Positions 1,316 to 4,321 of a DNA stretch of 49,113 bases are shown piece by piece (position 1 is the stretch's first letter; every line of letters starts with the position of its first letter). Source of the DNA: an uncultured Pelagibacteraceae bacterium (GTDB lineage: Bacteria > Pseudomonadota > Alphaproteobacteria > Pelagibacterales > Pelagibacteraceae); the NCBI GenBank assembly GCA_902594655.1, contig CACJMW010000006.1, forward strand, positions 1 to 49,113. Direction: 5' to 3'. Position numbers and translations under genes: made by a program. The notes beneath the pieces were generated by a model that was given only the letters and a program-made list of their open reading frames with translations, was not told the DNA's origin and searched no databases.

Positions 1316-2593
1316 TTAGAACTGCTCAGACTCAGTAGAGCCATCCATTGCGGTAGTAGAACTTTTTCCTGAACTTATTGTGTTGGATACTGCATCAAAA
1401 TAAGATGTTCCAACTTCCCTTTGATGTTTAACGCTTGTGTATCCATCTTTTTCTCTTGCGAATTCATGTTGTTGAATTTTAGAATATGCAGCCATTCCTT
1501 CTTCTTTATATTTCTCTGCTAAATCAAAAATAGCAATATTCTGTGTATGGAAACCTGCTAGAGTTATAAATTGGAATTTATAACCCATTTCAGCAATTTT
1601 TTTTTGAAATGATCCAATTTCTTCGTCTGATAAATGTTTTTTCCAATTAAAGGATGGAGAACAATTATAGGCAAGTAATTTCCCTGGAAATTTTGCATGA
1701 ATTGCATCAGCAAATTTTTTTGCTTCTTCTAAATTAGGAGTGGCAGTTTCACACCAAATTAAATCAGCGTATGGAGCGTATGCTAATCCTCTTGAGATAG
1801 CCTGGTCAATACCATCTTTAACATAAAAGAATCCCTCAGGTGATCTTTCACCTGTTAAAAAAGGTTTATCGTTTTCATCGAAGTCATTTGTAATAAGTTT
1901 TGCAGCATTAGCATCAGTTCTTGCTAAAATAATAAGGGGAACATCAGCGATATCTGATGCTAATCTTGCTGCCTTCAAATTCCTTACCATTGTACCTGTT
2001 GGAACTAAAACTTTACCACCCATATGACCACATTTTTTTTCACTTGCTAATTGATCTTCAAAGTGAACGCCTGCGGCACCTGCTTTTATAAATTTTTTTG
2101 TTAATTCAAATACATTTAACGGTCCGCCAAATCCTGCTTCTCCATCTGCAATAATTGGTAACAAATAATCAGTTCTATCTTTATCTTTCATGTCTCCATC
2201 AGTAATTTCCATATGTTGAATTTGATCTGCTCTTATCAAAGCGTTATTCATTGCCTCTACTAATTTTGGTGCGCTGTCATATGGATACAAAGATTGATCT
2301 GGATACATCTCTCCTGCACTATTTGCATCTGCTGCAACTTGCCATCCACTTAAATAAATTGCTTTAAGTCCTGCTTTTGCATGTTGCACTGCTTGATTTC
2401 CCGATAGAGAACCAAGCGTATTTACATAAGGTTCTGTATTTAATAATTTCCAAAGTTTTTCAGATTGTTGTTTACAAATAGAATGTTCAATTTTAATAGA
2501 TCCTCTTAATCTTTCAACTTCATCAGGCGTATAATCTCTTTTAATTCCTGCAAATCTTTTTAGTTTATAAGATACCTTACCTTCTGATGACAT
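1316..2593 (-). CDS. aceA: Isocitrate lyase (glyoxylate shunt)
   Basis: It cleaves isocitrate into glyoxylate and succinate in the cytoplasm, which allows growth on C2 and fatty-acyl-derived carbon. The 425-residue length is close to the usual 430. The catalytic KKCGH motif is at residues 186-190, with Cys188 as the catalytic cysteine. An ordered SGNQAVQ/SGWQVA substrate-binding region lies near residues 64-86, and [10 protein letters not shown] near 311-320. A strong GAGGAGA ribosome site lies about 5 nt before the ATG. It is the second gene after a 53-residue unknown protein (27-bp gap). Both are read away from an ScfR-type regulator gene across a dense array of TTTACAAA-like sites, so control by that regulator is likely (inference from RamB/ScfR family knowledge). 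Confidence 0.96.
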
Positions 2594-2620
2594 TCCGTCT
2601 CCTCTGATTATTTGATAGAT

Positions 2621-2782
2621 TTAAGAGCTTTGATTTTGATCATTGTTTTCTAGGCTCATTTCATTCATTCCACTTGAGCCCCAATCACAATGGTCGTCTC
2701 TGAGGTAAATACCTCTTGATTTATGTTCTTTGATATCTTGCTCTGTAATCTGGTTTTGTGTATTTTTATTAAATTCGTTCAT
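2621..2782 (-). CDS. Small conserved-looking unknown protein upstream of aceA
   Basis: This short reading frame of 53 residues is hydrophilic and acidic. It begins MNEFNKNTQ and carries a central RGIYLRDDHCDWGSSG segment followed by a polar tail. It has no membrane segment or signal peptide. It sits 27 bp upstream of aceA in the same direction and starts exactly at the edge of a 20-bp palindrome holding a TATAAT box 7 bp before its ATG. That spacing would give a leaderless or near-leaderless mRNA; no Shine-Dalgarno sequence is visible. The clean stop, codon use like its neighbours and position as first gene of the aceA unit support a real gene. I do not recognise the family. A role linked to isocitrate lyase is only guilt by association. 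Confidence 0.65.
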   Translation of the reverse strand: MNEFNKNTQNQITEQDIKEHKSRGIYLRDDHCDWGSSGMNEMSLENNDQNQSS

Positions 2783-2886
2783 GTAAATTATATAATTTAC
2801 AATATTTACAAAATAAAGGATAATGTTACTTTTTCCTTGTAAACATTGGAAATTTTTTGTAAATTAATATTTACAAAATTTACAAA
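2782..2886. promoter_or_regulatory. Divergent operator array between the aceA unit and the ScfR-type regulator
   Basis: A perfect 20-bp palindrome TGTAAATTATATAATTTACA lies at 2782-2801. TTTACAAA or its complement TTTGTAAA recurs at 2805-2812, 2856-2863, 2870-2877 and 2879-2886, with a 7-bp TTGTAAA at 2837-2843. RamB/ScfR-family regulators are known to bind TTTGCAAA-like elements, so this AT-shifted version is probably the operator for both the aceA unit and autoregulation of the regulator. The TATAAT inside the palindrome serves as a likely -10 element for the leftward transcript. Confidence 0.6.
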
Positions 2887-2896
2887 TAGAAAATTT

Positions 2897-4321
2897 ATGA
2901 GTACAGAAACATTAAAAATTGGTCCAAAAATCAAGGCTTTTAGAAGACAACTAGGGCTTCAAGCAAACAAGTTCGCTGAGGATCTGGGAATATCACCTAG
3001 TTATTTAAATTTAATTGAAAGTGGCAAGAGAAAAATTGATGGAGATTTACTTCTTAAGGTTTGTGATAAATTAAAGATACAATTATCTGACCTTACAGCG
3101 AAATCAGACTTAAATTTATATAATAATATATCTGAAATATTAGACGACTCTCTTTTTGAAGATTTAGATATTCTTGCTCCAGAAGTAAAAGACCTTGTTT
3201 CAACAAATCCGAAGATTGGCAAAGCTATACTAAGATTGGGTGATATTTTAAAAAAGAAAGATCACGAGCTTGTAAATAAAATTGAAAAGCTTTCTGGAAA
3301 AATTGTAGATAATAGAAAAAATTCATTTCCAGGGGAAGTTATAGCAGATTTTGTTCAAGAGAATAAAAACTATTTTCCTAAACTTGAACAATTTGCAGAA
3401 AAAATTTTTAATGAAATTCAAAAAAATAATCGAACAAGATATATTGCACTATGTGAGTATCTTTACTCTAAATATTCAATTACAGTAAAAGATGTAATTC
3501 CAGATGATAGTAAACCATTTTCTAAAATATATCATAAAAACAAGAAAGAACTGTTATTAAGTGACTATAATTCTTTAGAAACAAAAAAGCTTTATGCAGC
3601 TGCACAGGTTGCTCAAGAAGGTGCATCAGAAGAAATTAACGAATACCTGGAAACTTTTAAATTCCCATCTACTGAATCGAAGAATTTAGCTAAGGTTGCT
3701 CTACTTAATTATTGTGGAGCTGCAATTCTAATGCCATACAAATTATTTCATGCAGAGTGTAAAAAATTAAAATATGATTTAGAGCTTTTACAAAATACGT
3801 TTGCAACTTCTTTTGAACAAGTTGCACACAGAGTAACATGTTTACAAGATCCAAAACTGCCAGGAATTCCGTTCCATATGTTGCGTGTTGATATGGCTGG
3901 AAATATTTCAAAAAGATTTTCAATTTCTGGGATAGAAATTCCTAGATATGGAGGAGCGTGTCCAAGATGGAATGTTTACTCTGCTTTTTCTAGACCAAAT
4001 ATAATTCAAGTTGCTGTTAGTAGAATGACTAATGGAGAAAAATATGTTTGTATTGCACGGACTGTTGAAAAAGGTGTAGGAAAATTCGGGAAACCTAAAG
4101 GAATGTTATCAATTGGTTTAGGTTGTGAGGCTAAGTATGCAAAAGATTTTGTTTATACAGAAAATATAGATGTAAACGATAAAAAAACTGAAACGCCTAT
4201 AGGTGTTTCATGTAGAACTTGTGATAGATTAGATTGCGCTCAAAGAGCATTTCCACCACTTCATAAAAAATTTGATGTAGATATAAATAATAGAGGTGTA
4301 TCTGTATACGTAAATGAGTAA
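2897..4321 (+). CDS. XRE-family short-chain fatty acyl transcriptional regulator (ScfR/RamB-like)
   Basis: A cytoplasmic DNA-binding regulator of about 474 residues. An XRE helix-turn-helix spans roughly residues 8-62 (IKAFRRQLG, SPSYLNLIESGKR). A central IrrE-N-terminal-like/DUF955 segment follows (AAILMPYKLF, FEQVAHRVTCLQ). The DUF2083-type C-terminal domain has RYGGACPRWNV and ends in a cysteine cluster CRTCDRLDC followed by QRAFPP. Family members sense acyl-CoA status and control acetate, propionate or glyoxylate-shunt genes. Its divergent position from aceA fits that role. I chose the ATG at 2897 rather than an upstream ATG at 2846, because the extra 17 residues would be encoded by the operator repeats and do not belong to the HTH domain. 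No clear ribosome site precedes either start. Confidence 0.88.
   Translation: MSTETLKIGPKIKAFRRQLGLQANKFAEDLGISPSYLNLIESGKRKIDGDLLLKVCDKLKIQLSDLTAKSDLNLYNNISEILDDSLFEDLDILAPEVKDLVSTNPKIGKAILRLGDILKKKDHELVNKIEKLSGKIVDNRKNSFPGEVIADFVQENKNYFPKLEQFAEKIFNEIQKNNRTRYIALCEYLYSKYSITVKDVIPDDSKPFSKIYHKNKKELLLSDYNSLETKKLYAAAQVAQEGASEEINEYLETFKFPSTESKNLAKVALLNYCGAAILMPYKLFHAECKKLKYDLELLQNTFATSFEQVAHRVTCLQDPKLPGIPFHMLRVDMAGNISKRFSISGIEIPRYGGACPRWNVYSAFSRPNIIQVAVSRMTNGEKYVCIARTVEKGVGKFGKPKGMLSIGLGCEAKYAKDFVYTENIDVNDKKTETPIGVSCRTCDRLDCAQRAFPPLHKKFDVDINNRGVSVYVNE

Follow-up and report, generated by a model that had tools for sequence, protein, structure and literature searches.

How is the isocitrate lyase gene aceA of SAR11 bacteria controlled, and through which DNA sites? 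The question is raised by an intergenic stretch of 114 bp (2783-2896) that separates the start of a gene for a 53-amino-acid protein, located next to aceA, from the start of the regulator gene scfR in a contig of an uncultured Pelagibacteraceae bacterium (49,113 nucleotides, the whole stretch of DNA analyzed, hereafter called the window). A preliminary description had seen there a dense repeat array and a palindrome, and had proposed autoregulated control and leaderless translation. We consider it probable that the array serves the adjacent ScfR as its operator, in a joint reading where two promoters would be repressed and the transcript of the small gene and aceA would start near the ATG of the small gene. 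The regulator family, the target and the box type are already known. Our search of the open-licence literature found no description of the SAR11 arrangement, of its apparently single locus or of its tie to a [4Fe4S]-type ScfR, and no paper on a SAR11 ScfR or on SAR11 transcription start site maps.

Gene content of the locus

The genes concerned are the following:

1316-2593, minus strand: aceA, isocitrate lyase (NF011645, 729 bits against a cut-off of 562)
2599-2603, minus strand: AGGAG Shine-Dalgarno site of aceA, at -10 to -6 from the aceA start
2621-2782, minus strand: conserved 53-amino-acid gene, predicted to be leaderless, first gene of the presumed aceA transcript
2897-4321, plus strand: scfR, ScfR/RamB-type regulator of 474 amino acids with an HTH, an IrrE/M78-like domain, a ScfR C-terminal domain and a CX2CX4C motif

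The aceA gene is divergent from scfR and located upstream of it in all 150 loci examined (the window, 29 others, the best 80 of 480 and 40 more), a set that is partly redundant because two of the source collections overlap. Eleven genus-mates lack a detected scfR: two have aceA at a contig end and nine, all at least 92% complete, also lack a full aceA (G088, G127, G156, G186, G192, G214, G236, G238 and G244), as if the entire unit were lost or gained together. Rfam at gathering scores gave no structured RNA match within the window.

The small gene has a tblastn match in 141 of the 150 loci. Its pN/pS among 43 representative loci (see below) is 0.37 overall and 0.17 in the core RGIYLRDDHCDWGSSGMNEM; judging from this conservation, it is a real coding sequence. 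The 53-amino-acid protein matched no Pfam or NCBIfam family. A profile of the small protein (A1) gave a single match in each of 11 genomes out of 31, and no match in the 12 that represent the other family of the order; the single Pfam match of one of its 11 members (E = 0.036) was put down to chance. Two types of small genes are found between aceA and scfR, one with a DWGS(S/A)G(M/L) core, which has no match in Pfam or NCBIfam, and the other with a DD-x-CF core, and two loci (L122 and L126) carry both.

Repeats and conserved operators in the genus

The four 8-bp copies that had been reported are present, TTTACAAA at 2805, 2870 and 2879 and TTTGTAAA at 2856; the single 7-bp partial copy became two, TTTACAA at 2796 and TTGTAAA at 2837. 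These intergenic repeats are real and far above chance: four copies of the 8-bp repeat within about 115 bp correspond to a Poisson P near 3e-8, and the six TTTACAA/TTGTAAA of the stretch were not equalled in any of 5000 dinucleotide shuffles (mean 0.25, maximum 3). Over the whole window, TTTACAAA has an ordinary count of 16 (12.3 expected; 24 of 100 shuffles reach 16). Several copies combine into direct repeats of two T(T/G)ACA half-sites at a period of nine bp (hereafter DR9).

Conservation was studied on 123 of the 124 loci of the genus (L054, which has a GTG start, was left out), reduced to 43 representatives with less than 90% position-wise identity, a measure under which representatives differing by an indel may still be close kin. 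The elements of the intergenic stretch are:

2782-2801, no strand: perfect 20-bp palindrome TGTAAATTATATAATTTACA, whose right arm contains the predicted -10 and a half-site of A
2789-2794, minus strand: predicted -10 hexamer of the 53-amino-acid gene, here TATATA, at -12 to -7 from the ATG
2796-2812, plus strand: putative operator A, DR9 TTTACAATATTTACAAA, at -30 to -14 from the ATG of the 53-amino-acid gene
2837-2843, minus strand: single inverted half-site TTGTAAA, 40-41 bp past the start of A in 40 of 43 representatives
2856-2863, minus strand: single inverted half-site TTTGTAAA, whose TTGTAAA lies 60-61 bp past the start of A in 37 of 43 representatives
2870-2886, plus strand: putative operator B, DR9 TTTACAAAATTTACAAA, separated from the scfR ATG by 10 bp

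Phylogenetic footprinting across the SAR11 aceA-scfR gaps, which the preliminary description had recommended, found the repeats conserved and the spacing of A and B fixed in 42 of the 43 representatives: measured start to start, it is 73 bp in 35 and 74 bp in seven, with one exception. Seven turns of B-DNA at 10.5 bp correspond to 73.5 bp. The alignment of the representatives is made up of invariant or nearly invariant blocks (TTATAATTTAC, ATTTACAA, TTGTAAA, TTGTAAA and ATTTACAAAATTTACAAATAG) with variable sequence between them. Over the 150 loci, the gap contains three to seven half-sites (TTTACAA/TTGTAAA) in 148 and one in the other two; allowing up to two mismatches in 13 positions, at least one DR9 is found in 149 loci and at least two in 147.

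The perfect palindrome that had been described does exist, and its last base on the minus strand is the A of the ATG of the small gene, but its standing as a conserved element had to be abandoned, since it is perfect in one of the 43 representatives and its left arm is a local feature. A perfect TTTGTAAATTTACAAA palindrome was also seen elsewhere in the genome of the window (L001; G000:C2:70677-70692).

In this genome (901,668 bases, 71% complete), A and B are the only exact matches to the motif TTTACAAWRTTTACAAA. A wider regulon was considered and rejected, as the 14 forward and 15 reverse occurrences with up to two mismatches compare with 12 and 11 for the reversed control. Across 61 genomes of the genus, including this one, 73 matches are listed for the exact 15-mer TTTACAAWRTTTACA, spread over 46 genomes; 20 pairs lying 73-74 bp apart account for 40 of them, and the reversed control has eight matches.

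Sites in other lineages and loss of the regulator

The architecture varies beyond the genus. In 19 of 22 loci from other genera, box B has the inverted orientation. The boxes are 91-92 bp apart in 13 of the 22, 83 bp in six and 62-63 bp in two; the two commonest distances differ by nine bp, that is, by one half-site step. One locus (L132) has scfR and no DR9. Four loci with a double HTH (L135-L138) were part of the spacing run and have no spacing value, their starts being approximate; the same repeats are visible there.

In more distant Alphaproteobacteria, 11 of 26 scfR loci show a DR9 in the 160 bp ahead of the gene and 15 show none, compared with a shuffle mean of 0.17 (maximum 2) and none in 208 coding stretches. 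These 26 loci come from 26 genomes of 50-66% G+C and correspond to the 30 best-scoring loci minus the window, L021, L176 and L177. The last two, one from the same family (L176) and one from the same class with 28% G+C (L177), were set aside and have two DR9s each.

Four genomes of genus g3 that have aceA, with further sequence past it, and no detected scfR (G002, G034, G050 and G108; 64-86% complete) contain no half-site and no DR9 in 330 bp, while ten g3/g6 relatives with scfR have one to four half-sites and two or three DR9s. The count excludes three genomes where the region meets a contig end (G082, G168 and G170), of which G168 retains the first 15 scfR codons. In G034 and G050 the surroundings of box A still align and the half-sites are altered, while the side of box B no longer aligns; G034 also shows a change from GCTTGTAAAT to GCTTGTGAAT. 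In G002 and G108 the region is unrecognizable rather than decayed. Since the operator sites are gone where scfR is undetected and aceA is kept, the comparison ties the sites to ScfR. The autoregulated operator array of the preliminary description thus gains support from the footprint, the fixed spacing, this loss of sites and the likeness to the Paracoccus RamB boxes discussed below.

Some loci deserve separate mention. In L130, L131 and L132 the ScfR has a changed HTH (SPAFLSLIE or TPAFLSLIE in place of SPSYLNLIE in L130 and L132) and the operators are altered or missing, as if site and reader had drifted together. In L153 (G234:C2:118300-119716), scfR seems to be broken near its end, with a second piece in another frame containing a stop, and the operators look intact.

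The regulator and its characterized relatives

The window protein has the ScfR C-terminal domain (PF09856, 1.1e-59, 201 bits against a cut-off of 24) and the N-terminal HTH (HTH_3, 46 bits) by which the ScfR family is recognized, together with a Peptidase_M78 match. It resembles PrpR (6cz6) over residues 69-467 (E = 5.4e-67). PrpR of Mycobacterium tuberculosis is a tetramer that binds CoA esters and has a [4Fe4S] cluster bound by C363, C447, C450 and C455 according to PMC6765138, which named such [4Fe4S]-dependent acyl-CoA regulators IsaR. The window protein has the corresponding cysteines, a GAF-domain C355 in GGACPRW and C439, C442 and C447 in the C-X2-C-X4-C motif; all four align with those of PrpR at the same distance of 84 residues, and the cluster itself is a prediction. 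Among 171 proteins of at least 400 amino acids, 170 have CX2CX4C and 162 have GGxCPxW or GNxCPxW; three of the remaining nine have SGACPxW and thus keep the cysteine. This count omits shorter proteins, mostly with a mis-set start (six of the 150 and one other). In six genomes, a single open frame of 564-580 amino acids encodes a ScfR with a doubled N-terminal HTH (L135, L136, L137, L138, L172 and L173, from G154, G152, G137, G222, G184 and G202, respectively), and in the four of these loci that were read the upstream repeats look unchanged.

A class 1 RamB identity was ruled out, the protein scoring 358 bits against the curated cut-off of 700 of the RamB equivalog NF038139. The RamB of Corynebacterium glutamicum, which belongs to this class, is an acetate/glyoxylate regulator of the same family but has a 13-bp AA/GAACTTTGCAAA site and many targets (PMC4448153). 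PrpR/RamB of M. tuberculosis shares with the window protein the C-terminal architecture and the conserved [4Fe4S] cysteines, PrpR being likewise divergent from its target (PMC6765138, PMC3420887). The PrpR operator, however, is the palindrome TTTGCAAA, in two copies one base apart of which one is imperfect, and this palindrome is absent from the SAR11 intergenic sequence, so that a PrpR-type operator was discarded.

The closest likeness in the boxes is to the class 2 RamB of Paracoccus denitrificans, an ScfR next to glyoxylate-cycle genes which needs two 14-bp boxes with T(G/T)AC half-sites nine bp apart (PMC10370305). In the published oligonucleotides, wild type and mutant differ in two 14-nt blocks, each of which is a DR9 (TGACAAACCTTACA and TGACAATACTGACT); that DR9 is the defining part of the Paracoccus box is our own reading of them. 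The SAR11 locus has the DR9 box of T(G/T)AC half-sites and the glyoxylate-cycle neighbor of a class 2 RamB. Nevertheless, the Paracoccus boxes are separated by 18 bp (32 bp start to start), in the same orientation and upstream of an activated promoter, whereas the SAR11 boxes lie 73-74 bp apart start to start in 42 of 43 representatives, with one box in the aceA-side core promoter, the other at the start of scfR and two extra inverted half-sites. The preferred ligand suggested for the Paracoccus protein is beta-methylmalyl-CoA, an intermediate of the ethylmalonyl-CoA pathway (PMC10370305). An apparent mention of RamB in a SAR11 paper was dismissed, being merely the author name Rambo.

Mode of control

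Taken together, the conserved sites very probably allow an acyl-CoA-sensing, perhaps iron-sulfur-dependent, regulator to control both aceA and its own gene. By analogy with PrpR, ScfR would probably act as a tetramer with a bound acyl-CoA and a [4Fe4S] cluster. It would bind the two DR9 boxes located seven helical turns apart, a spacing that fits a tetramer holding both, and the two inverted half-sites between them would assist. Since A lies at -30 to -14 within the promoter of the small gene and aceA, and 10 bp separate B from the scfR ATG, a bound ScfR should obstruct both promoters; we infer from this position of the operators that one complex most likely represses both. A change of ligand or of cluster state would then release the DNA, inducing the glyoxylate shunt and the regulator together.

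The sign of the control could differ in SAR11, since the Paracoccus RamB activates from boxes placed upstream of its promoter. Through the same sites, ScfR might activate the promoter of the small gene and aceA while repressing scfR at B. The Paracoccus protein does activate a glyoxylate operon (PMC10370305), and the promoter of the small gene and aceA in the window has no good -35 hexamer (TTTATT at -35 to -30). Yet box A falls within the core promoter, a position unlike that of the Paracoccus motif, 82 bp upstream of its gene; moreover, the C. glutamicum RamB mostly represses its targets (PMC4448153) and the M. tuberculosis RamB represses icl1 and its own gene (PMC3420887, PMC6765138). We therefore regard activation as rather unlikely, though worth keeping in mind, and retain the repression of both promoters as the preferred reading.

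Start of the transcripts

The second part of the proposed mechanism is that the transcript of the small gene and aceA would begin at the ATG of the small gene or within about 6 nt of it. The preliminary description placed a TATAAT 7 bp before this ATG; on the minus strand it actually occupies -10 to -5, with four bases between. In 41 of the 43 representatives, the hexamer at -12 to -7 starts with TA (TATAAA in 17, TATAAG in 16, TATATA in three and others in five), which is the proper place of a -10 if transcription begins at the A of the ATG. In most representatives this hexamer does not end in the T that is usual for a -10. An alternative -10, TAAATT, overlaps a half-site and would give a leader of about 6 nt.

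Other genera provide a comparison. Among the 11 loci of genera g3, g6 and g8, TATAGT is found at -12 to -7 in seven and at -13 to -8 in three (its place in L151 and L152 was taken by eye), and L119 has TACAGT. In eight loci of genera g5, g9 and g12 (L122-L129), the ATG stands 18-26 nt past the last half-site, against 13 in the commonest type of the genus, and a Shine-Dalgarno-like tetramer precedes the first gene in all eight. A TATA element like that of the genus would give leaders of about 12-13 nt in L125, L127 and L128. Since another small gene comes first in L123, L124 and L129, the comparison concerns the promoter rather than one gene. From the place of the -10 on one side and these leaders on the other, transcription in the Pelagibacter type seems to begin on the start codon itself, which probably leaves the lyase-side transcript with no leader. 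The locus would thus allow a comparison between a lineage whose start codon coincides with the predicted transcription start and others where a Shine-Dalgarno leader precedes it.

The claim that neither divergent start has a Shine-Dalgarno site was borne out in the window, and a similar tetramer precedes two of the 43 small-gene starts and no scfR start, either in the 43 representatives or in 22 other loci. This absence alone is weak evidence, as only 16 of the 44 window genes have a match of at least 4 nt (20% in shuffles). The leaderless start suggested for the small gene is supported by the -10 position and by the leaders of the other genera. For scfR, the absence of a Shine-Dalgarno site is conserved, but no clear -10 is seen in the genus; in other genera, a TTGACT-16/17-TAAATT promoter over box B in five of 22 loci (three by eye) would give scfR a leader of about 3-5 nt.

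Alternatively, both genes could have ordinary leaders, with the true promoters elsewhere and the TATA elements being merely parts of the operator. A TTTACA-17-GATAAT match would give scfR a leader of about 65 nt, and TTATAA is itself palindromic and abuts a half-site. Nevertheless, 41 of 43 representatives keep the hexamer at the same distance from the ATG, TATAGT is at -12 to -7 or -13 to -8 in 10 of the 11 g3/g6/g8 loci, the loci that do have Shine-Dalgarno leaders (L122-L129) have their ATG 5-13 nt further from box A, and a promoter scan yielded fewer sites than shuffles (1 against 2.7). Ordinary leaders are thus unlikely, and a start of the lyase-side transcript at or close to the ATG is preferred. 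Finally, that the sites belong to another regulator or are functionless AT-rich promoter repeats, as the 30% G+C of the window and the frequency of TTTACAAA in it might suggest, is highly improbable in view of their fixed spacing, their base-level conservation, their presence next to scfR in G+C-rich Alphaproteobacteria and their absence where scfR is undetected.

A possible link to iron

A response of SAR11 aceA to iron in the Southern Ocean is stated in PMC6618146, citing Beier 2015, and our search of the open-licence papers found no mechanism for it. We tentatively suggest, as a possibility with the balance of probability against it, that the array serves as the output of an iron switch governing the SAR11 glyoxylate shunt, acting via an ScfR with a [4Fe4S] cluster. 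In that case, ScfR with an intact cluster and an acyl-CoA would repress aceA and itself through the boxes spaced by seven turns, and iron shortage would lead to the loss of the cluster and free both promoters. If true, this switch would account for the reported response by a single regulator acting on a single dedicated operator. With the operators of such a self-regulating ScfR defined, the iron question of aceA could be put to the test using purified protein and short DNA.

In HTCC1062 under iron limitation, aceA (SAR11_1240) increased 1.58-fold (P = 0.091) and SAR11_1242, annotated as 'Transcription regulator' and presumably scfR from the gene order, 1.60-fold (P = 0.054), both in the late cluster (PMC2864753). 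The two genes thus rise together, weakly and with weak P values, and neighbor effects are possible because they adjoin the strongly induced sfu iron genes. In the available part of the protein table of the same paper, aceA does not appear. Annotated transcription regulators were few in SAR11 cells according to PMC13198564, and most enzymes of the citrate and glyoxylate cycles of HTCC1062 changed little in abundance in the conditions of that study.
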